A stretch of DNA of 64,000 nucleotides from Methanomicrobiales archaeon HGW-Methanomicrobiales-3 (GCA_002839605.1 PGYK01000004.1:62001-126000), one strand, 5' to 3'; shown: positions 3,141 through 23,395, counted from the stretch's first letter. Notes: generated by a model not told the origin, from the sequence alone. A program made the numbers and translations.

Positions 3141-3644
3141 CTAGGCGAGAGCTGCCACGGTGTCCGCCCAGGTCTCAACATTCGTCCGGATTGCGTCATC
3201 CGAGTACGAGGTGATGGTGACCCGGTCGCGGCTGAAGTTCACCATGTAGATCTCGCCGTTGGCGTCATGGCACTTCAGGGTCGCGGAGAAGCCATCCTTC
3301 CCGAGATCGTGGACCACGGTTCCGCCGTGAGCCGTGCTGACCGCAGCAGCGGCAAGCACCGCAGTCACACCGGCATTGAACTTTGCCAGCGTGTCGAACT
3401 TGTGGCTGCCCGTGCCAACGGTCTTGGCCTCAAGGTCCTGGTAGACGAACTTGGCGGTGTATGCCTCCTTGGTCTTCTCGACCGGTTCATGGGTCACACC
3501 GCCGGTCATATACGATACACACTCAAAGGGATTGTCGTCGATGACCGACTGGACGATCGTGTTGAACGTCGCGACATCCGCAATGGGTTCTGCAAGGGTG
3601 CGGACTGCACTCTTGACATTTGCACTCTGTACGAAATCTGCCAT
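3141..3644 (-). CDS. Hypothetical 167-residue protein
   Basis: Starts MADFVQSANVKSAVRTLAEP with a GGGAGTG motif upstream. The product is soluble, Ala/Thr/Val-rich, with mixed helix and strand; the C-terminal half (KDGFSATLKCHDANGEIYMV, RDRVTITSYSDD) looks like a beta sheet. No known motif is visible. The first 20 bases of the gene and about 80 bases of upstream DNA are repeated at 5361-5458, where only the first codons remain. So the 5' end of this gene was duplicated or used as a recombination site. It reads in the same direction as, and 87 bases upstream of, the three-gene operon ending at 1849. Function unknown. Confidence 0.7.
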   Translation of the reverse strand: MADFVQSANVKSAVRTLAEPIADVATFNTIVQSVIDDNPFECVSYMTGGVTHEPVEKTKEAYTAKFVYQDLEAKTVGTGSHKFDTLAKFNAGVTAVLAAAAVSTAHGGTVVHDLGKDGFSATLKCHDANGEIYMVNFSRDRVTITSYSDDAIRTNVETWADTVAALA

Positions 3645-3723
3645 TTCTTCACTCCCGCCCTTGGGCCCTTGGGCTGAATAGTACTCTGTGGGAGGCGGGG
3701 CTTAGGTTTTACTGAAGGGAGGA
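3625..3723. repeat. Direct repeat, left copy (about 98 bp)
   Basis: This segment holds the first 20 bases of the 167-residue gene plus its upstream region. It recurs at 5361-5458 with only a small difference near the start codon (CCATTTCTTCACTCC against CCATACTTCACTCC). The two copies bracket the lipoprotein/DUF3006 cassette. Confidence 0.9.
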
Positions 3724-5360: not shown

Positions 5361-5458
5361 CTCTGTACGAAATCTGCCATACTTCACTCCCGCCCTTGGG
5401 CCCTTGGGCTGAATAGTACTCTGTGGGAGGCGGGGCTTAGGTTTTACTGAAGGGAGGC
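5361..5458. repeat. Direct repeat, right copy (about 98 bp)
   Basis: Near-identical to 3625-3723, including the first codons of the 167-residue gene (CTCTGTACGAAATCTGCCAT), but here no downstream gene body follows on the minus strand. It is therefore an orphan gene start. The pair flank an insert of about 1.64 kb. Confidence 0.9.
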
Positions 5459-5520: not shown

Positions 5521-6552
5521 TTATGTTTCGGAATTTCCCGAGACAGGGACACAAATGAATTGAATGGGTTTTCGCGAAGTCTGATGCGTCAAATCCCCTT
5601 CGATAACAAAATATTTTATTAGAGTCTTTGTCTTATCAAAATCGTAAAGTCGATAAAGATAATATTTTTCTGCATTTTCTTGAGAACAAGTGAATTCGGT
5701 CTCGGAGAGGATGAATGGTTCGGATTTTCCGCTCGTTGTGGTTTTCACTTCAATATATTTTATTTTCCCGTCAGGTGTGACCGATTGAATGTCGTATCCT
5801 AACCCATCTCCCTGGGTTTTTGCAACATGTTCAATTCTCTCGATCATGCTGGGAGCATTCGCTTTTCGGAGAATTGCTTTTTCAATCTCGATCACCGCAA
5901 GTTCGCCCGCGTCTCCGATAACAGTATTCTTTTGATTTTTAGTAATATAATCCGTTTTTCTTCCAACAAATTTCTTCGGCTTCGAATTACTGGCAATTGG
6001 TTCGCAATCTGGTGATTCTGTTTGAAGATAGGATATTGAATTATCCGAGCTCTTCAGGAGGGAAAAATTATCCGGGATTAATTCAAGCTCATGATTAGGA
6101 TCATCATCCGAAGAGGTTTCTGAATATGATTCACTATTGAATTCAACCTCATATTCATTTGCAATATTCTTTTTCAAAAATTTTAGAGTGGGAGTGTCGC
6201 TTGTTTTTTTGCCATTTCGGTTAAAATACTCAACCCATTCGGGAAATTTTGTTTGTATCAGCTTTTGAAAATCGCTTTTCCACAACAATCGGGTTCTTGG
6301 ATTATTCTCATTAAGCATCTCGAAATGAGCAACAAAACTTTTTGTTCTAAAAGACAAGGCGATTTGTCTTTTATCGCCGACACTCAAAGAGTCAATATCA
6401 AAAAATGAGCGAATCTCAATGGGAATTCCTGTTCCGTGATGTAGGAAAGAGGATTTGTCCATTTGTTTAACGGCAATGAGATTGGATAGGATTTTCCAAG
6501 AATAGAATTCGTATTCAAATACCGGGTCGGCTCTCTTTTTCGGCACAACCAA
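5521..6552 (-). CDS. DUF3883-domain protein, divergent from the NurA-HerA operon
   Basis: The C-terminal 130 residues show the DUF3883 pattern: GDAGELAVIEIEKAILRK, GDGLGYDIQSVTPDGKIKYI, EVKTTTSG and an NAEKYYLYRLYDFD segment. The GYDI...IEVKTT core resembles PD-(D/E)xK nuclease folds, and the domain is frequent in restriction and defence loci. The N-terminal part is unassigned. The start is a problem. TTG at 6552 is the first recognised start, but the same frame continues upstream to 6648 with protein-like sequence (RIEVALRFQF, ANKYLTEKQF) and no ATG, GTG or TTG. Either a rare start (ATT at 6627, 11 bases after GGAG) or a 5' frameshift is likely. It faces the operon beginning at 6835. Confidence 0.75.
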   Translation of the reverse strand: MVVPKKRADPVFEYEFYSWKILSNLIAVKQMDKSSFLHHGTGIPIEIRSFFDIDSLSVGDKRQIALSFRTKSFVAHFEMLNENNPRTRLLWKSDFQKLIQTKFPEWVEYFNRNGKKTSDTPTLKFLKKNIANEYEVEFNSESYSETSSDDDPNHELELIPDNFSLLKSSDNSISYLQTESPDCEPIASNSKPKKFVGRKTDYITKNQKNTVIGDAGELAVIEIEKAILRKANAPSMIERIEHVAKTQGDGLGYDIQSVTPDGKIKYIEVKTTTSGKSEPFILSETEFTCSQENAEKYYLYRLYDFDKTKTLIKYFVIEGDLTHQTSRKPIQFICVPVSGNSET

Positions 6553-6834: not shown

Positions 6835-8022
6835 ATGATTGAGGCAATCGGTAAACCCAAAGATAACAAAGTCATGAATATCTTAGCCGAAGTAACTGGC
6901 GGGAAGAGTTACAAGGCACACAAATATGCTCTTGACCACTCGGAACGGCCTTCGGTAGATTATGGCCCGAGTGAGATTGTTTGGAGACGAAGAGCGGAGA
7001 CTTCCCCACAAAAAAACTACATAGATTTATCAAACAGATGTAAGAAGCTCGCCAGTCAGGATGATCAGATCCTGAGCTATTTCTTGGACGGTTCGCGCAG
7101 GGTTTTTAAAGTTGATGATATGGCTTATTCACAATCGGGTAATCGAAGTGTGATTTATCCCGTAGTAGCCGGGCAGATAGGAGTTGGATGTTGCCGTCGT
7201 GTTGACAAAAAGATGATTCCTGCCCGGTTCAAGCGCGAGTTTGTATTATCCATGCCTGATGTGGCAGACGCAGACGGAAAATCAGGATTTTGGCCAGCGA
7301 CAGTAAAAAAACTTAATGAATGTGACGAATTAAAAAGACTCGGAATGGTGTTCTCATCAATTCTTCCATATAAAACATCTAAAAATGATGATAAAAAATA
7401 CGAGGATCGAGCCACCGCAGCTATCCAAGATAGAATGATTGATCGTGAGAAAGAATTAGTAGCGGAACTCGTCCGCGAGGGCATGTTGGATCAGGACAAC
7501 TATTTAGTTAAGGATGGATCTTTGGAATATCGTCCAACTAAGGAAGATAAATCCGACAAGAAAAAATATCAGACCTTCAAGAACAACTACAACTGGGTTA
7601 TTGGGGCCTCAAAAAATTTTAATCCGGAGGTTTGTATGGATGCTAATGGCCATCCAAATCCCGGATTTATTGCAGAGTTGCCACTTTACCATCGCACACC
7701 TGTTGCTGAATATGAGAACGATATGCTTGGGGACATCAAATTTGCAGTATGGTATATCAGATTACGGGATAAAAACCGGACCCGAACTCCATTCGATGGT
7801 ATTCTTAAAGTGGAAAAAATTCTCGTAACAGAGGAAGAGAATGAACGCGGTATCGAGAGCGATCTCGTGGATACATTGAGCGCTTATCTTATGAATGAAA
7901 GGAATCCTGTTTGCTATGGATCAGATCTCCGTTGGGCGAATCACCTATACCCGATTTATCTGACAGAGTCATTTGTTAAGTCTCGGTATTTGAGTACGGA
8001 AAGTTTTCTACATTTGTTCTAA
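6835..8022 (+). CDS. NurA-like nuclease, first gene of a four-gene system
   Basis: The 395-residue product has the NurA pattern: a first acidic motif LDGSRRVF (Asp85), a second motif VKDGSLEYR (Asp227), VIGASKNF (Lys260), and a C-terminal WANHLYPIYLTES. NurA proteins are 5'-3' exonucleases/endonucleases that work with the hexameric HerA translocase in archaeal DNA-end processing. This copy is longer and more divergent than housekeeping NurA, with a charged insert at about residues 180-250. The next gene is HerA-like and begins 12 bases after the stop, supporting the pairing. Composition is AT-rich, unlike the core genome. The start at 6835 has only a weak GGA motif. Activity is inferred from motifs and context. 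Confidence 0.75.
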   Translation: MIEAIGKPKDNKVMNILAEVTGGKSYKAHKYALDHSERPSVDYGPSEIVWRRRAETSPQKNYIDLSNRCKKLASQDDQILSYFLDGSRRVFKVDDMAYSQSGNRSVIYPVVAGQIGVGCCRRVDKKMIPARFKREFVLSMPDVADADGKSGFWPATVKKLNECDELKRLGMVFSSILPYKTSKNDDKKYEDRATAAIQDRMIDREKELVAELVREGMLDQDNYLVKDGSLEYRPTKEDKSDKKKYQTFKNNYNWVIGASKNFNPEVCMDANGHPNPGFIAELPLYHRTPVAEYENDMLGDIKFAVWYIRLRDKNRTRTPFDGILKVEKILVTEEENERGIESDLVDTLSAYLMNERNPVCYGSDLRWANHLYPIYLTESFVKSRYLSTESFLHLF

Positions 8023-8033
8023 AGGGGGGTAAC

Positions 8034-9731
8034 ATGAGTAACAACAAGAGTAAATTAATTGGACGAATTTTGGCAACGGAAAAAAATCCTACTACTATTG
8101 ACGAATTCAATTTTTGGACGAATTCGGACTTGAAACTCAGTGCTTTTGATATTGTCAAGGTTGAGCACATCGATGGGTCTTATACTTTCGGTGTGATCGA
8201 GAACATTTCTCATATTACGGATGCCCAGAGTTTTTTGACCAACTTCATATCCAGTGATTTCGGCGATGTAAATATTGATGAACCGACGTTGCGAGTCGGC
8301 ATGAACTATGCTAAAGCCAAAGTTTCCTTTAACAATGACAATCTGTACACCCCGGTACATAATAATGCTAAGGTGTATCTTGCCACTGCAGAAGAAATCA
8401 CGCAGGCCTTAGGCCTTGATAGGATACAAAATCCGCTGGTTTGCGGGTCCTTAAAAATGTATGAGGGGACTTCAATGGAGGTAATACTTCCGGTACACTT
8501 GAACTCAAAATTTATCCTAGGGCCGGAAGGTGCGCATCTAAATATTTCTGGCATTTCTGGTCTCGCGGCGAAGACATCATATGCGATGTTTCTCATGAAG
8601 GCAATCCAGGATCGATACCAGAAAGACGATATGAGTGACAGCGTAGCCTTCGTTATCTTCAATGTAAAGGGCAAGGACCTTATGGCGATTGATAGGCCGA
8701 ATGATTTTTCGTCCGACATCCAGGGTGAAAAAGAGAAAACTTTTACGGAGTACGAGGCATTGGGTTTGTCTACTGCGCCCTTTAAAAATGTAAAATATTT
8801 CATTCCCTACACCGATACAAAATCCGCCAAACAGAGCACATATTTGACAAGGGAAGAAATCAAGGACAATATTGACGCCGGTCAGCTGAAGAAGTTCAAA
8901 TACATCTATTCGGATGATAAAGAGAACATCGAAATGATGTTTGCAGACATCGATGACCCAACCCAAACTATGGAATCAATAATTAGCAAAATCATAGACA
9001 AAGAGGATATTGATTTCGGCGGCCTTTCAACGTGGAAAGACTTTATTGACAAAGTCACAGAAAAAGCCCAAAAAGGCTCCGCCGGGGATAAGGGAGATAT
9101 TTCCGTTTTGAGTTGGCGAAAATTTAAACGTGTAATTCGCAAGGCCCTTCAGGATGAGATGTTTGCATACAGGGTTAATGGTCGGGAGGCGGAATGTCGC
9201 TTAGCTGATGAATTGAAGAAAATCAGAAAGAATGAGGTATTTGTAGTCGACATTGCCAAATTACCCGAAGACAAACAAGCATTTGTCTTTGGTGACGCAG
9301 TGCGCACGATTTATAATTTGAAGCTCGGAGAGTATGATGCCGAGTCGAAAGTGGATCCTCCATCCAGAATCATCATTTTCATTGATGAACTTAACAAATA
9401 CGCTTCAAAAGATGTCCCAAAGACTTCACCGATTCTGCGCGAAATATTGGATGTGACCGAACGTGGTCGGTCATTGGGCGTTGTTCTCTTTGCTGCTGAA
9501 CAATTCCGCTCTGCTATCCATGCCCGTGTAACTGGCAACTGTGCCACGCACGCCTATGGAAGAACAAACTCCATCGAAACGTCGGCTAAGGATTATAGCA
9601 GCCTTCCGAACACTTACAAAAACATGTTGACGCGGTTGGAACAGGGAGATTATCTAGTTCAGAATCCTATCTTCCGATCTATCTTAAAAATAAATTTCCC
9701 GAAACCGATCTACAAGCAGTTCAAACAATGA
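8034..9731 (+). CDS. HerA-like AAA+/FtsK-fold ATPase with altered P-loop
   Basis: An N-terminal HAS-barrel-like region (SAFDIVKVEHIDGSYTFGVI, about residues 36-56) is followed by the ATPase domain. The P-loop is GISGLAAKTS (residues 173-182), with Ala where the canonical motif has Gly before Lys-Thr. The Walker B strand is RIIIFIDELNKYA. Further motifs typical of HerA include VIFNVKGKDL and the ERGRSLGVVLFAAEQ block (here TERGRSLG). HerA forms hexameric rings that pump DNA into NurA. A strong GGGG Shine-Dalgarno precedes the ATG at 8034. The GHKL ATPase gene starts 11 bases after the stop. Whether the changed P-loop still hydrolyses ATP cannot be judged from sequence. Confidence 0.8.
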   Translation: MSNNKSKLIGRILATEKNPTTIDEFNFWTNSDLKLSAFDIVKVEHIDGSYTFGVIENISHITDAQSFLTNFISSDFGDVNIDEPTLRVGMNYAKAKVSFNNDNLYTPVHNNAKVYLATAEEITQALGLDRIQNPLVCGSLKMYEGTSMEVILPVHLNSKFILGPEGAHLNISGISGLAAKTSYAMFLMKAIQDRYQKDDMSDSVAFVIFNVKGKDLMAIDRPNDFSSDIQGEKEKTFTEYEALGLSTAPFKNVKYFIPYTDTKSAKQSTYLTREEIKDNIDAGQLKKFKYIYSDDKENIEMMFADIDDPTQTMESIISKIIDKEDIDFGGLSTWKDFIDKVTEKAQKGSAGDKGDISVLSWRKFKRVIRKALQDEMFAYRVNGREAECRLADELKKIRKNEVFVVDIAKLPEDKQAFVFGDAVRTIYNLKLGEYDAESKVDPPSRIIIFIDELNKYASKDVPKTSPILREILDVTERGRSLGVVLFAAEQFRSAIHARVTGNCATHAYGRTNSIETSAKDYSSLPNTYKNMLTRLEQGDYLVQNPIFRSILKINFPKPIYKQFKQ

Positions 9732-9742
9732 TGTGATGCACC

Positions 9743-11278
9743 ATGGACGAATTTATTTTCGGGGCAAATATTTTAGAAAACCTTACGACAGGAATGTATC
9801 AGGACTCTAAAGTAATCTATCGTGAGTACATCCAAAACTCTTGTGATCAAATTGATAAGGCTGTAAGAGATGGAATCCTAAAACAAAATGAAGGCTTTAT
9901 CAAAATATGGTTAGACCACGAAAAACGCAACATCACCATCGAAGATAACGCCACAGGCATTCCCGAAGCGGAGTTTAAACGCACTCTTGGAAATATTGCC
10001 GACTCCGACAAGAAGATCGGCGAAGACAAAGGTTTCCGGGGCATTGGAAGATTGTGTGGTTTGGCTTATTGCAAAGAGCTTATTATCACGTCATCCTTTA
10101 ATGAGGAGGGAATAGTTTCAATTTTAAAGTGCGATGCGAAGAAAATGCGTAGACTCATTGATGAGCACGCGCGTGGCATGAAACATACAGCAAACGATGT
10201 ACTTCAGGCAATATACCAATTTGAGCAGAAAAAAGAAAAAAATTCTGCCTCACATTTCTTTAAAGTAGAACTTATCGATATTAATCCCGAAAATACTGAC
10301 CTTCTCGACTTTCAGCAGGTTAAAGATTATCTCTCTTTTGTTGCTCCTGCTCCCTATCAGAGCAGCTTCCATTATCGTTCAAAAATTTATAATCACGCGA
10401 AAGAATTAGGCACCAAAATAGATGAGTATAATATCACTCTCGACGGCGAACAAATTTTTAAAAAATATACAACCATATTGAAGGATCCTAACGGTGAAAC
10501 ATACGACGATATCTCTGATGTAGAGCTCAAGGATTTTAAGAATGAAAACGGTGAGCTATTAGCATGGATGTGGGTCGGCGTTTGCTCTTTTAAAAAATCC
10601 ATTCCGCCGAAAAACAATCCGATGCGTGGCCTGCGGCTGCGAAAAGAGAATATCCAAATAGATGGAGAGGATTCACTCCAAAACCTCTTTAAAGAACCTC
10701 GCGGAAACGGCTATTTTATTGGTGAAGTTTTTGCAATAGATAAAGAGTTAATCCCTAATTCGCAGCGCGATTATTTCAATGAAAACAAAGCACGGAACGA
10801 TTTGGAGCGTGAGCTTAAAAAATATTTTAACGAAGATCTTCAAAAAATTTATAACGTCGGATCTGAGGTTAATAGCGCTTATAATAAAATTGAAACATTT
10901 GAGAGAAAAAATGCTGAGTTCAAAACAAAAGAAATTAATAAATCTTTTTTAGATGATACTCACCGAAAACGCGAGTTAAAAAATGTTCAAGAATCAAAAG
11001 AAAAAGCTGATGCTGCCCAGGAAACCATCAAAAAAGCTAAAGAGAAAGCCGGCATTTTAGCTCAAAAAGTAATTTCTAAAATAGAGGCTGAACGACCTCT
11101 GTCAGTTGCCAAACCGGTATTCCATCCTTTAAACGCAAAATCTCACGAAAATAGAAAATTTTCTAAATATAGTCAAAATGAACGTAAGATTATTTCAAAA
11201 ATATTCAGTATTATTTCAACAGTAGCTGATCCGGAAACGGCCGAACTAATCATCAAAAAAATCGAGGATAAACTCTAA
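9743..11278 (+). CDS. Hsp90/MORC-like GHKL ATPase
   Basis: The N-terminal Bergerat-fold ATPase shows all the expected boxes: YREYIQNSCDQID (Glu28, Asn32), EDNATGIP (Asp68, Gly72) and GEDKGFRGIGRLCGL (residues 93-106). A central region (about 230-370) contains NSQRDYFNEN near residue 350, as in Hsp90/MutL-type middle domains. The C-terminal third is Lys/Glu-rich and probably coiled coil (KEKADAAQETIKKAKEKAG). GHKL ATPases of this kind act as ATP-gated clamps, and bacterial MORC-like forms are known from restriction-type loci. The stop codon overlaps the start of the radical SAM gene by one base. Partner and substrate are unknown. Confidence 0.8.
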   Translation: MDEFIFGANILENLTTGMYQDSKVIYREYIQNSCDQIDKAVRDGILKQNEGFIKIWLDHEKRNITIEDNATGIPEAEFKRTLGNIADSDKKIGEDKGFRGIGRLCGLAYCKELIITSSFNEEGIVSILKCDAKKMRRLIDEHARGMKHTANDVLQAIYQFEQKKEKNSASHFFKVELIDINPENTDLLDFQQVKDYLSFVAPAPYQSSFHYRSKIYNHAKELGTKIDEYNITLDGEQIFKKYTTILKDPNGETYDDISDVELKDFKNENGELLAWMWVGVCSFKKSIPPKNNPMRGLRLRKENIQIDGEDSLQNLFKEPRGNGYFIGEVFAIDKELIPNSQRDYFNENKARNDLERELKKYFNEDLQKIYNVGSEVNSAYNKIETFERKNAEFKTKEINKSFLDDTHRKRELKNVQESKEKADAAQETIKKAKEKAGILAQKVISKIEAERPLSVAKPVFHPLNAKSHENRKFSKYSQNERKIISKIFSIISTVADPETAELIIKKIEDKL

Positions 11279-13092
11279 TGGGCCGAAAAATTCTCTTAAT
11301 AGAGCCGAATTATCGAAATAAATATCCTCCGATGGGCCTTATGAAGCTGGCGACATATTATCGCAAGCGAGGGGATGATGTACGCTTCTTTAAAGGTGAT
11401 CTAAAGTTTTTCGCAGCTCAATTATTATGTGAAGAATTTCTTTCTGAGGTGAATGAACCCAGATTGGGAAAACACGTACCTAAACTCATTGAGCATATAA
11501 AGACAGGAAAGTATGCTCCACTAGATGCGCTTCCGGACTTCAGGAAAAGCGCACAAGAGACACTTCTAAAAGAATATCGCCTTCGATATCTGGAGGGTGA
11601 TTTCCCTCAATTCGATATTATTCACATCACTACTCTTTTTACCTTTTATTGGCGCGAAACAATCGATACCATTAACTTTGCAAAAAAGTTCCGTTCAAAC
11701 TCTGGCAGAATAATTGTTGGTGGAATAGCTTCAACCATTCTTCATGAGCGAGTTTTTCAAGAAACCGGAATTGATCCTATCTGTGGGCTATTAGACAAAC
11801 CTGGGATGCTGGATGCCGATAGTGCTGACATTATCGACGAAATGCCTTTAGATTACTCCATTTTAGAAGAAATTGATTATCAATATCCGGCAAATAACGC
11901 CTATTTTGCTTATACGACGCGAGGCTGCCCCAGGAAATGCTCCTTTTGCGCCGTTCCTCGTTTAGAGCCAGAATATATTGATTATATAAATTTGGCAGAG
12001 CAAATCAAGCAAGCTACTTCGCGATTTGGTCCGCAAAGGGATTTGCTTCTAATGGACAATAATATTTTAGCTTCCAAACACTTCGATAAAATTATTAATG
12101 AGATTAAAAAATGTGGGTTTGAGCGTGGTGCTATGCATACTCCCGTAGACGATTATGACATAGCAATGAAAAACATACGCTCTGACTATAATGTGAGAGC
12201 GTATACAAGAAAAATCATCAGACTTTACGATAACATTTCTGACAAACTTCCTGAATCTGAACAAGCAGATTTTTATATAAAACGTGAAGAACAGAATCTT
12301 CTTTATGCCGAAGTGGCGAGTCCTGAAGCAATAATAAGGTTCGATAACATAGCTCGGCCACTCTATGAGAAATATATCCAACGGACCAAGCGCCCGTCAA
12401 TGCGTATTATTGATTTTAATCAGGGCGTGGATGCTCGTTTCGTGACTGACAAGAAAATGAAAAAATTGGCGGAGGTCAACATTCGTCCGCTGCGTATCGC
12501 ATTTGACCATATTTCAATGAAAGACAAATATGAGTCTGCAATCCGAATGGCTGCCAAGAATGGTATAACCCACTTATCCAACTATTTACTCTATAATTTC
12601 AATGACAAGCCAGAAGAGCTGTACTATCGGATGAAACTCAACGTCGATTTGTGTGACGAACTTGATGTGAAAATTTTTTCTTTCCCAATGAAATATCACC
12701 CGATTGACGATCCAGATTTCTTTTATAATCGGGAATATACTGGAGAGCATTGGAATCGAAAATTTATTCGAGCGATTCAAGCGGTTCTTAACGCTACAAA
12801 AGGAAAAATAGGTCGCGGAAAATCATTCTTCGAGGAGGCTTTTGGAAAAGATGTTGACGGATATTATAAGATTTTATGGATGCCGGAAGCGTTTATCATT
12901 CATCGTTTTAAATACAAAGAAAATCTGACTGCGGATTGGTGGAATCAATATAACAAACTTGATGAAATACAGCGAAATCAATTGCATGAGATAGTGGCTA
13001 AAAATCAATTTGAGGAAAAAAACATTACGGGAGACCTTGCCATTGACAGTGTGCTAAAATATTATTATGTCAAACGCGATAGACCGTCATAG
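11278..13092 (+). CDS. Radical SAM protein with B12-binding-like N-terminus
   Basis: The first 160 residues resemble a cobalamin-binding-type Rossmann domain (KILLIEPNYRNKYPPMGLMK; FDIIHITTLF; GRIIVGGIAS), but the classical cobalamin DxHxxG motif is not evident. The radical SAM core has TTRGCPRKCSFCAVPRLE, giving Cys217, Cys221 and Cys224 as ligands of the [4Fe-4S] cluster. Later segments (FNQGVDARFVTD; AFDHISMKDKY; SNYLLYNFNDKPEELYYRM) continue the barrel. The 604-residue length exceeds a minimal radical SAM enzyme. Overlap with the GHKL gene makes it part of the operon. Its reaction is unknown; it could make or modify a small molecule, nucleic acid or protein used by the system. Confidence 0.85.
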   Translation: MGRKILLIEPNYRNKYPPMGLMKLATYYRKRGDDVRFFKGDLKFFAAQLLCEEFLSEVNEPRLGKHVPKLIEHIKTGKYAPLDALPDFRKSAQETLLKEYRLRYLEGDFPQFDIIHITTLFTFYWRETIDTINFAKKFRSNSGRIIVGGIASTILHERVFQETGIDPICGLLDKPGMLDADSADIIDEMPLDYSILEEIDYQYPANNAYFAYTTRGCPRKCSFCAVPRLEPEYIDYINLAEQIKQATSRFGPQRDLLLMDNNILASKHFDKIINEIKKCGFERGAMHTPVDDYDIAMKNIRSDYNVRAYTRKIIRLYDNISDKLPESEQADFYIKREEQNLLYAEVASPEAIIRFDNIARPLYEKYIQRTKRPSMRIIDFNQGVDARFVTDKKMKKLAEVNIRPLRIAFDHISMKDKYESAIRMAAKNGITHLSNYLLYNFNDKPEELYYRMKLNVDLCDELDVKIFSFPMKYHPIDDPDFFYNREYTGEHWNRKFIRAIQAVLNATKGKIGRGKSFFEEAFGKDVDGYYKILWMPEAFIIHRFKYKENLTADWWNQYNKLDEIQRNQLHEIVAKNQFEEKNITGDLAIDSVLKYYYVKRDRPS

Positions 13093-19356: not shown

Positions 19357-21177
19357 ATGGCGAAGCGCTATGATGCGGGCACTTGGCTCGATAAAGGGTA
19401 TGAACACATGTCAAACAGCAAATACAAGGACGCATTATCAGCTTTCGAGAAGGCAATCAAGGTAGATCCAAAATTTGCAAATGCCTGGAACGGAACAGGA
19501 TGGGCACTTTATGAATTGGAACGTTATGAGGAGGCTCTTGTAGCTTACGATGAGTCTATCAAATTAGATCCAAAATTTGCAAATGCCTGGAACGGTAAAG
19601 GGTGGGCACTTTATCAATTGAAACGGTACGAAGAAGCAATTACTGCTTTCGACGAGGCTATCAAATTAGATCCAAAAAACACACAATACTGGTGCGAAAA
19701 GGGAGAGGCACTTTTTCATTTGGAACGTTATGATGAGGCTCTTGTAGCTCTCGACGAGGCTATCAAATTAGATCCAAAATTTGCAAACGCCTGGTGCGGT
19801 AAAGGATGGGCACTTGATCGATTAAAATGTTACAAGGAAGCTATTACTGCTTACGACGAGGCTATCAAACTAGATCTAAAAAACAAAGATGCTTGGCAGG
19901 GTAAAGGGCGGACACTCTCTCATCTGGAACATTATGAGGAGGCTATAGCAGCGTTTGATGAGGCAATTAACCTAGATCCAAAAAATGTCTACGTATGTGG
20001 CGATAAAGGGTGGGCACTTAGTCAATTGGAACGTTACGATGATGCGATTCTTGTTTTCGACAAGGCCATACAATTAGATCCGAAAAATAAGATCTGGTGG
20101 GACCATAAAGTGAGGGTACTGTCTCATCTGAAACGGTATGAGGATGCTATTGCAGTTTATGACATGGCTATCCATTTGGATCCAAAATGCATTGGTTACA
20201 TGCTGAAAAAAGCAGACATTCTTTTTGAACTGAAGCGTTACGAGGAAGTTATTACTGCTTTCGAAGAAGTTCTCAAGTTAGATCTAAAAAACAAAGATGC
20301 TTGGCAGGGTAAAGGGAGGGCACTCACTTATCTGGAACATTATGAGGAGGCTATTGCTGCTTTTGATGAGGCAATTAAACTAGATCCAGAATATGAGTAC
20401 GCCTGGAGCAGTAAAGGTCGTGCATTCTCCAGTCTCGAACGTTACGATGATGCCATTGTTGCTTTTGATAAGGTAATTAAACTAGATCCAAAAAATGAAT
20501 ACGCCTGGTGCGAAAAAGGAGATGCACTTTCGTCCTTGAAGCATTACAAGGAGGCTATTGCTGCTTTTGATGAGGCAATTAAACTAGATCCAGAATGTGA
20601 GTACGCCTGGATCAGTAAAGGGCGTGCATTCTCCAGTCTCGAACGTTACGATGATGCCATTGTTGCTTTTGATAAGGTAATTAAACTAGATCCAAAAAAT
20701 GAATACGCCTGGTGCGATAAAGGAGATGCACTTTTTGAAGCCGAAAAATATAAAGAAGCAATAGACTGCTGCGAACAAGGACTCAAGGTTAATCCCAATG
20801 ATAAGTCAATAAAAGAAACATTGAAAGAAATTTGGGATAGAATACCAAAACCAGATCTCGAAATCACATTCGATGAGACAGAACTAGTTTTGAACGAATG
20901 GGATAAAGTTTCTATTAATATTGAAAATACTGGGAATGCAAAAGCAGAAAATATTCAATTGTCATTTTCCAAGGATTTTGAAACGAGAGGTCTGAAACAA
21001 TTTGATCTGGATCGTTGGGCAGACAAGTCATTTGATTTTGCCATTAAACCAACAGCCAAAGGGAAAAACCTCCTTGAGATAACTACAACATACACCAGTG
21101 AAGGCAATCCCGAATATACAAAAACAGATGAATTTTGGATTGATGTTGTGAAACAGAAAAAGAGTGAGGACTATTGA
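19357..21177 (+). CDS. Large TPR-repeat protein with C-terminal CARDB-like domain
   Basis: The 606-residue product is almost entirely 34-residue tetratricopeptide repeats to about residue 490, with the consensus Y-E-E-A-I-x-A-F-D-E-A-I-K-L-D-P. It shows about 14 units in superhelical array. Residues 500-600 form a beta-rich domain (LNEWDKVSINIENTGNAKAE; NLLEITTTYTSEG), like CARDB or other Ig-like adhesion folds. No signal peptide is seen, so it is probably intracellular. TPR arrays bind peptides and scaffold complexes. Two-repeat blocks at about 20393-20520 and 20597-20724 are nearly identical in DNA, so the array has expanded recently. The following gene encodes a membrane protein, suggesting a functional pair. 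Confidence 0.85.
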   Translation: MAKRYDAGTWLDKGYEHMSNSKYKDALSAFEKAIKVDPKFANAWNGTGWALYELERYEEALVAYDESIKLDPKFANAWNGKGWALYQLKRYEEAITAFDEAIKLDPKNTQYWCEKGEALFHLERYDEALVALDEAIKLDPKFANAWCGKGWALDRLKCYKEAITAYDEAIKLDLKNKDAWQGKGRTLSHLEHYEEAIAAFDEAINLDPKNVYVCGDKGWALSQLERYDDAILVFDKAIQLDPKNKIWWDHKVRVLSHLKRYEDAIAVYDMAIHLDPKCIGYMLKKADILFELKRYEEVITAFEEVLKLDLKNKDAWQGKGRALTYLEHYEEAIAAFDEAIKLDPEYEYAWSSKGRAFSSLERYDDAIVAFDKVIKLDPKNEYAWCEKGDALSSLKHYKEAIAAFDEAIKLDPECEYAWISKGRAFSSLERYDDAIVAFDKVIKLDPKNEYAWCDKGDALFEAEKYKEAIDCCEQGLKVNPNDKSIKETLKEIWDRIPKPDLEITFDETELVLNEWDKVSINIENTGNAKAENIQLSFSKDFETRGLKQFDLDRWADKSFDFAIKPTAKGKNLLEITTTYTSEGNPEYTKTDEFWIDVVKQKKSEDY

Positions 21178-22014: not shown

Positions 22015-23247
22015 TTACAGTTCCCCTTTCCTTTTCATCTCCGCGATCCGTTCATCGATAAGCTGCCGCAGGATATCCGGGTTATCCCGAAGGACGCTCT
22101 GCTGAATCCCCTCATCCGTATCGATCACAACATCGGAAAGCCGCTGGCCGCACGAGAAACAGTAGTTCGAGATGGGCGGGTTGATCTTCCGGCAGTGCGG
22201 GCACTGGACCGGCTCCAGCCGTGTCGTAGCGTTGTCATTGTCCGTGACACTGATGCCGTAGGATTCGAGCATCGCAGAGTCGATGTCCTGACCGGTGAGA
22301 TGGGCATAGGTTCGGAACATATCGGTGCTGATGTTGCCCCACATCATGAGTTTGATCACGCTCTCCGGGACCTTCTCCTTGATGAGGTGCGTTATCCGGC
22401 TGTGGCGGAAGACATGCGGCGTGATGTGTTTGCGGATTCCGGCATCCTTCGCAATGCACTTGAGCCGCTTGTTGATGGTCGCATGGATGAGGGGCTTGCC
22501 GCGTTCGTTCACGAAGACCAGCCGTTCCCCGTTCGGGTCCGGTTTGTAGCAGGCCCGCCACTGTGCCAGGTATTCCCGGGCCATGATGAGCCGGACGTAC
22601 CGGGGCATGTTGGTCTTGAAGTTCACGTTCGCGATGATGCCGTATTTATCGAACGTTAGATCGCCCCAGGTCATTGTCCCGATCTCGCCAATCCGGAACC
22701 CGCCTTCGTAGAGCATCATGATGAGTGCCCGGTCCATGGTCCGGGTGCACGCCTTCACCATCGCGGTAATTTCGTCCGGTGTCAGCAGGTCGGCGGCCAC
22801 CTTCGTCATGGTGTCCTTGGGCGGCGTCCGGAGTTTGTGGATCTTGCTTTCGGTGAGCGGGGAATATTTGTTCTCGATCATCCAGAGGTAGAACTGCTTG
22901 AGGATGGCGATGAAATCGCTGATGGTGTTCTGTTTGAATGGCTTCTCCCGGCTGCTCTTTGCATTTCTCAGCTCAGGGATTGCAGCGTAAAGATCGCCAA
23001 TGGTATTGTCGGCAAACGGCCCGATGAACCGGCGCCAGGAGATCAGCGTGAAGGTGAGCTTATTCGCCCGCCCTGCGCTGATGTTCTTGCAGGACCGGAG
23101 TTCTGCAATGAATTCCCGGATCTGGGCGGCATCGACCGTCGTGATAGTAAAGTCCTGAAGGGCGGCCTTGATTGCGTTTTCTGCCAGATCTGTCCTGACA
23201 GGATGAAAAGAGCTGCTCGTAAGCAACTGAGCGACTGGGTAAGTCAT
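22015..23247 (-). CDS. Tyrosine recombinase / integrase with C-terminal zinc ribbon
   Basis: The 410-residue product has an N-terminal SAM-like DNA-binding region and the catalytic domain of phage-type integrases. Catalytic residues visible are Arg in EGGFRIGEIGTMTWGD, the HxxR box HVFRHSRITHLI, and the nucleophile region YAHLTGQDID. The C-terminus adds a four-cysteine zinc ribbon (CPHCRKINPP...YCFSCGQRL). The start lies 64 bases from the 3' end of the tRNA-Leu gene, the usual arrangement for an element integrated in a tRNA. I infer it mobilises the island to its left. A matching left attachment site was not seen in the window. Confidence 0.9.
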   Translation of the reverse strand: MTYPVAQLLTSSSFHPVRTDLAENAIKAALQDFTITTVDAAQIREFIAELRSCKNISAGRANKLTFTLISWRRFIGPFADNTIGDLYAAIPELRNAKSSREKPFKQNTISDFIAILKQFYLWMIENKYSPLTESKIHKLRTPPKDTMTKVAADLLTPDEITAMVKACTRTMDRALIMMLYEGGFRIGEIGTMTWGDLTFDKYGIIANVNFKTNMPRYVRLIMAREYLAQWRACYKPDPNGERLVFVNERGKPLIHATINKRLKCIAKDAGIRKHITPHVFRHSRITHLIKEKVPESVIKLMMWGNISTDMFRTYAHLTGQDIDSAMLESYGISVTDNDNATTRLEPVQCPHCRKINPPISNYCFSCGQRLSDVVIDTDEGIQQSVLRDNPDILRQLIDERIAEMKRKGEL

Positions 23248-23310: not shown

Positions 23311-23395
23311 TGCGAGGGATGGGATTCGAACCCAAGAACTCCTGCGAGACCAGGCCCTGAACCTGGCGCCGTTGACCTGGCTTGGCTACCCTCGC
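23311..23395 (-). tRNA. tRNA-Leu (anticodon CAG)
   Basis: Read on the minus strand the gene starts GCGAGGGTAGCCAAGC and ends in the T-arm GGGTTCGAATCCC and acceptor strand CCCTCGC with discriminator A. The anticodon stem CCAGG/CCTGG encloses the loop TTCAGGG, giving CAG. A long variable arm is typical of leucine tRNA. The 3' CCA is not encoded. The gene is the probable integration target of the adjacent recombinase. Confidence 0.92.

Follow-up and report, generated by a model that had tools for sequence, protein, structure and literature searches.

What could a nuclease, a DNA-translocase ATPase, a GHKL ATPase and a radical SAM (rSAM) enzyme accomplish together? The question is raised by four adjacent genes within a 64,000-nucleotide stretch of DNA (the window) from Methanomicrobiales archaeon HGW-Methanomicrobiales-3. 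Known restriction systems mark their own DNA by SAM methyltransferases, phosphorothioation or deazaguanine insertion, and prokaryotic viperins are radical SAM enzymes in defence. The preliminary description of the locus knew of no described system with this set of genes; likewise, we found none in open PMC full text, a scope outside which lie subscription papers and preprints. We argue that the cassette very probably has an antiviral or anti-invader role. Our main reading, which we hold at a probability of about 0.5 from comparative genomics, is that the rSAM enzyme marks DNA so that NurA-HerA spares it, the whole being an antiviral restriction system with an rSAM modification half.

Four genes in a probable mobile element

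The genes of the cassette and its setting, with their predicted products, are:

6835..8022, + strand: NurA-type nuclease, Deinococcus-type (P0001, 395 aa)
8034..9731, + strand: HerA-type DNA-translocase ATPase (P0002, 565 aa)
9743..11278, + strand: GHKL ATPase with complete Bergerat boxes and a variable C-terminal half (P0003, 511 aa)
11278..13092, + strand: rSAM enzyme with an N-terminal B12-binding-like Rossmann domain (P0004, 604 aa)
22015..23247, - strand: tyrosine integrase, 410 aa (PF00589, E=9.4e-27), giving a mobile-element context
23311..23395, - strand: tRNA-Leu(CAG), detected by ARAGORN, probable integration site of the element

The four open reading frames at 6835-13092, their common strand and the gaps of 11, 11 and -1 bases between them are as first described, and so is the AT-rich composition of the cassette against a GC-rich host: its GC content is 0.40, versus 0.557 in the window between 24 and 64 kb. 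The integrase gene abuts the tRNA-Leu gene, which suggests that the four-gene cassette is probably part of an integrated mobile element. A 19-bp copy of the 3' end of the tRNA-Leu gene, located 41.8 kb leftward, was considered as an att site and rejected, as host-like genes intervene.

Several other features surround the cassette. Adjoining it at 5521-6552 (- strand) is the gene of a protein with a NO VEIN C-terminal domain (PF13020, 1.3e-20; PADLOC PDC-S36, 1e-44), a second candidate defence gene. A protein that looks similar by eye is encoded downstream of the cassette in locus L093; the NO VEIN-like neighbour is not conserved among relatives and was rejected as a member of the cassette. A 98-bp direct repeat (3625-3722 and 5361-5457, 98% identical) represents the duplicated 5' end of the gene at 3141-3644 and brackets a gene for a lipoprotein of metallo-beta-lactamase fold. 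Between the cassette and the integrase lies an AT-rich gene for a 606-aa TPR-repeat protein (19357-21177).

Predicted folds and active sites

P0001 matches no Pfam family at E<=1, the NurA model included. The top Foldseek match of its AF2 model (pLDDT 88) is D. radiodurans NurA (7f6d_G, E=1.4e-11), followed by S. solfataricus NurA (2ygk) and TM1739 (1zup); the E-values of these three range from 1.4e-11 to 1.3e-7, and all significant fold matches are NurA structures. The best match in a profile search was 7f6d_H (E=0.16). P0001 belongs to a divergent clade without a Pfam match, so its name rests on the fold, and the model predicts a NurA-type nuclease with the RNase H-like NurA fold. The motifs LDGSRR and VKDGSL, noticed earlier as signs of NurA, are indeed present, with D85/G86 and D227/G228 invariant in 24 homologues; the invariant residues of the homologue alignment are D85, D227, K260, R309 and R366. 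The catalytic residues of D. radiodurans NurA are the aspartate D53, the lysine K201 and the arginine R309 (PMC9960219). D85 (in DGS), K260 (in SKxFN), R309 and R366 of P0001 fit this set and are its candidate counterparts.

The P0002 profile (A2) matches D. radiodurans HerA (7f6d_B) with E=1.3e-52, spanning both halves; the HAS-barrel of P0002 in Pfam reaches E=0.077 only, under the cut-off. The preliminary description had listed a HerA P-loop and a Walker B motif. The Walker B motif (FIDELNKY) is conserved, with D451 and E452 invariant, but the P-loop is not canonical: GISGLAAKTS departs from GxxxxGK[ST] at one residue and is nearly invariant in homologues. The same non-canonical Walker A (GISGxAxKTSY) is common to P0002 and D. 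radiodurans HerA, where K175 and T176 bind nucleotide and Mg (PMC9960219), which suggests that the loop of P0002 is a real ATP site. P0002 can be assigned to the FtsK-HerA ATPases, with a predicted HAS barrel and a RecA core carrying Walker A and B.

P0003 exceeds the cut-off for PF13589 (E=1.2e-11), and its nearest relatives in the PDB are HtpG/Hsp90 (about 1e-11). Its Bergerat boxes are complete, as had been claimed: E28, N32 and D35, D68 and G72, and G97-FRGxGR-103 are all invariant. This places P0003 among predicted GHKL ATPases with N, G1 and G2 boxes; the more specific label 'MORC-type' was not borne out, Pfam and PDB giving general GHKL and HtpG/Hsp90 only. Two different GHKL paralogues occur per locus in L102, L103, L104, L206, L207 and L209, one of them apparently tied to a nuclease or PIN-like protein and the other to the rSAM enzyme.

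In P0004, the CxxxCxxC motif (C217, C221, C224) reported at the outset is invariant in homologues, and the score for PF04055 is just above the cut-off (30.5 versus 29.5 bits). As the profile search against the PDB gave no match, we used a fold search, in which the AF2 model (pLDDT 89) recovers a mixed set: TsrM (4.8e-10) and MgmA (2.4e-9), but also AprD4 (7e-8) and MiaB (7e-7). The model points to a member of the radical SAM superfamily with CxxxCxxC in a partial TIM barrel, and its overall fold appears to be that of B12/rSAM methyl- and methylthiotransferases. A candidate B12-binding domain stays under the cut-off (PF02310, E=0.0037). P0004 matches PHROG 9298 (7.8e-41) and no PADLOC model at E<=1, hence neither viperin (pVip) nor any other rSAM defence protein there; its methylase-like fold further sets it apart from viperins. 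The long defence forms cluster together in the rSAM tree at 100/99, whereas the deeper joins and distant placements involve long branches and are unsure.

Conservation and spread of the cassette

Using P0004 alone as the query, we searched 84,980 species, each represented by a single genome, and obtained 51 relatives, most of which have NurA, HerA and GHKL genes directly upstream in the same order. Together with loci added later, all four genes are full length in 41 loci, nearly always in the order NurA-HerA-GHKL-rSAM and usually with gaps of <20 bp. The taxon labels of these loci comprise Bacillota, Chlorobiota, Synergistota, Planctomycetota, Deferribacterota, Ignavibacteria, Pseudomonadota and the phylum of the window itself; many loci stem from metagenome bins and may be labelled with the wrong taxon. 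The divergence of the four proteins is coupled: comparison of their distance matrices gives r=0.925-0.965 in all six pairs (Mantel p=0.001). The catalytic residues expected of each protein are invariant or nearly so across homologues, and third codon positions are far more diverged than first and second ones, indicating that the proteins are under purifying selection. No conserved fifth gene was found in the 51 loci.

The co-occurrence is thus not confined to the window, and the rSAM gene is not a separate one in relatives: it directly follows the GHKL gene in nearly all of them. Each protein has homologues that stand in the same order in distant phyla, more than expected by chance, and we rejected the possibility of a cassette confined to the host lineage. 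The proposal that the four genes form one machine is well supported by the genomic data (number of loci, order, proximity and correlated divergence).

An HNH endonuclease gene (PF01844, weak) is found inside the cassette at differing points in five loci (L019 9162-10001, L024 8386-9219, L028 5841-6686, L045 2-466 and L039 7662-8366). We rejected it as a regular extra effector: in four of the five loci (L019, L024, L028, L045) the junctions truncate the cassette, with parts of HerA, GHKL or rSAM missing, and only in L039 does it precede intact GHKL and rSAM genes. It apparently invades or replaces the cassette.

The cassette is sporadic, occurring in about 1 to 2% of genomes per phylum. The proteins share up to 83% identity with those of Chlorobiaceae and Bacillota while being absent from most genomes of the same family, which shows horizontal spread. 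Viral contigs carry complete cassettes (L126, L127), and conjugative plasmids bear rSAM relatives. Such carriers, the phage homologues and the integrase and tRNA-Leu beside the cassette would suit genes that serve the mobile element and not the host, excluding competing plasmids or viruses or shielding the DNA of the element from the host. We consider this quite unlikely, and it is compatible with our main reading; numerous copies are found in long, chromosome-like contigs, where their neighbours vary.

A slot apparently shared with DNA methyltransferases

The role of the rSAM enzyme can be approached through a sample blind to the partners of NurA-HerA. HerA alone, used as the query in 838 genomes of three phyla, gave 14 matches. 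The corresponding NurA-HerA operons carry GHKL and rSAM in nine cases, DNA methyltransferases in five, and both in none. The chance of such exclusivity is 1 in 2002 if the loci are independent, but the HerA of the methyltransferase type is a sister clade of the cassette HerA, so that shared descent makes part of the exclusivity and the 14 loci do not amount to 14 independent events.

The five operons of the methyltransferase type (L121-L125) have the same NurA and HerA families as the window, with DNA methyltransferases where the window has GHKL and rSAM. A Type IIG REase-MTase of ~1090 aa lies beside NurA-HerA (1211 bits in PADLOC for L122), in most cases together with an N6/N4 methyltransferase. 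This suggests that this NurA-HerA clade as a whole has a role in restriction. A crude scan of ORFs of at least 150 aa for [DNS]PP[YFW] or a C5 motif, with L030 left out, detected a DNA methyltransferase motif in each of the five methyltransferase-type loci; the 20 rSAM loci scanned, including those with Pbe and DISARM genes, had none. The rSAM cassettes differ in this from types I-III restriction-modification, where a DNA methyltransferase is present. PbeABCD has been described as a partner of phosphorothioation or methylation (PMC6459918, PMC10853773), yet the neighbourhood of 165 of 553 Pbe modules contains no known modification gene (PMC6459918), which makes a missing methylase weak evidence by itself. 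Combined with the swap against methyltransferases, the absence of the motif suggests that the rSAM enzyme, usually with GHKL, occupies the slot of a DNA-modifying enzyme, and we regard such a replacement as the parsimonious reading. No sequence-specificity subunit was recognised.

The sister operons also bear on a reading of the cassette as a mobile DNA repair or recombination unit, in which NurA-HerA would resect ends, GHKL would act like MutL and the rSAM enzyme would repair a base lesion much as spore photoproduct lyase does. Archaeal and Deinococcus NurA-HerA are end-resection enzymes (PMC9960219), and MutL has the same GHKL fold. However, the sister operons resemble restriction-modification, the rSAM enzyme pairs with DISARM and Pbe parts, and spore photoproduct lyase is absent from the fold matches of P0004. 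A gene set present in about 1% of genomes, and on plasmids and viral contigs, also speaks against repair, which we find very unlikely.

rSAM relatives in defence modules and phages

The proposed marking of DNA by the rSAM enzyme can be compared with the company that its relatives keep outside the cassette. A search with the rSAM profile recovered a locus (L097) with PbeA (4e-218), PbeC (2e-188), a 151-aa protein comparable in size to PbeD/DndE, together with rSAM, GHKL and a DndB-like protein. L096 similarly combines PbeA/PbeC-like genes with rSAM, without GHKL. The window cassette differs from these PbeABCD (CxC-DndE)/Dnd modules in having neither PbeA/C nor DndC, DndD or DndE. We rejected the presence of DndC elsewhere in the carriers: none of 17 carrier genomes has a match to TIGR03183 over the cut-off, and the sub-threshold matches are seen in control genomes too. 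In L100 (5331-14850) a distant rSAM homologue leads a DISARM-like set, directly before DrmA (1.9e-108), DrmB, a DrmC-like PLD protein and a DrmE_C protein, with no recognised methylase in the locus; the window has no Drm genes.

Genes similar to those of Menshen (NsnABC) form another association. In L042, NsnB-like (1.5e-61) and NsnC-like genes stand immediately before GHKL-rSAM. L102 combines NurA-HerA-GHKL with an NsnB-like gene, a gene of 295 aa, another GHKL and rSAM. NsnA was not recognised in these loci, and the window is without all three genes; to our knowledge, NsnB/C are not known as a modification system. The order in L103 and L104 is NurA-HerA-GHKL-rSAM-GHKL. On plasmids of alphaproteobacteria the arrangement is DGQHR-rSAM-GHKL, to which a PIN-like protein and a second GHKL are usually added, and DGQHR/DndB-like genes adjoin rSAM in L044 and L206-L209. 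On phage contigs, a ParB-like gene, an rSAM gene (PHROG 9298) and terminase genes follow in this order, consecutively or nearly so (L144 9285-12705, L151 9283-13424, L152, L153 8228-11601), possibly representing a phage DNA-marking locus.

L030 (11827-16788) presents an rSAM gene without NurA or HerA; helicase-methylase fragments, type ISP-like by eye, adjoin it on the opposite strand, and a distant GHKL gene lies divergently upstream.

The recurrence of rSAM with other defence modules lends genomic support to the defence role suspected initially. It also bears on the strongest rival to our main reading, in which the cassette is antiviral but the rSAM enzyme synthesises an antiviral nucleotide or a signal, or has a partner protein or tRNA as its substrate, with NurA-HerA and GHKL forming a triggered nuclease. 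Like a shared signalling part, the rSAM enzyme turns up beside effectors of widely different kinds (NurA-HerA, NsnB/C, PIN-like), and enzymes of the P0004 fold act on proteins (MgmA), metabolites (TsrM, AprD4) and tRNA (MiaB). On the other hand, both the swap with DNA methyltransferases beside NurA-HerA and the adjacency of rSAM to DndB/ParB-like and terminase genes point to DNA, and no PADLOC model of any rSAM defence protein was matched. We judge a signal or a non-DNA substrate to be somewhat unlikely.

Extending DNA marking from the cassette to the whole rSAM family (PHROG 9298 and long relatives), we tentatively propose, at slightly less than even odds, a DNA-modification module not recognised before. 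It would usually come with GHKL and often with DGQHR/ParB-like proteins, and would fit NurA-HerA, Pbe, DISARM, PIN-like and Menshen-type systems in place of methyltransferases or Dnd; phages would use it to mark their own DNA before packaging.

A proposed model of restriction with an rSAM mark

The cassette would be a horizontally moving antiviral restriction system with NurA-HerA as its restriction half: HerA would pump DNA through its ring and NurA would cut it, as has been shown for the D. radiodurans relatives (PMC9960219) and as we infer for P0001 and P0002. In the modification half, the rSAM enzyme would act on host DNA, with GHKL as an ATP-gated clamp or a DNA-scanning partner, and leave a mark that is most likely a SAM- or cobalamin-derived carbon group. 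Marked host DNA would then be spared by NurA-HerA in vivo, and unmarked viral DNA destroyed.

The closest described relative, NurA-HerA of D. radiodurans (7f6d; PMC9960219), shares with the cassette the two folds, the unusual Walker A and the gene pairing, but is described as acting in DNA end resection, and GHKL and rSAM partners are not in that description. PADLOC-DB (2023) has no model of the cassette; among the four proteins only HerA matched, to mad8 of MADS (mad1-8) at 2.7e-11, and no other mad protein was matched.

If our reading is true, an rSAM enzyme in the self-marking slot would add to restriction a radical chemistry able to alkylate unactivated carbons, and NurA-HerA, known for repair, would acquire a restriction role. 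It would account for some of the Pbe and DISARM modules in which no modification gene is known. It would also predict that a DNA mark awaits discovery in ordinary cultured bacteria, among them Novosphingobium aromaticivorans (plasmid pNL1).
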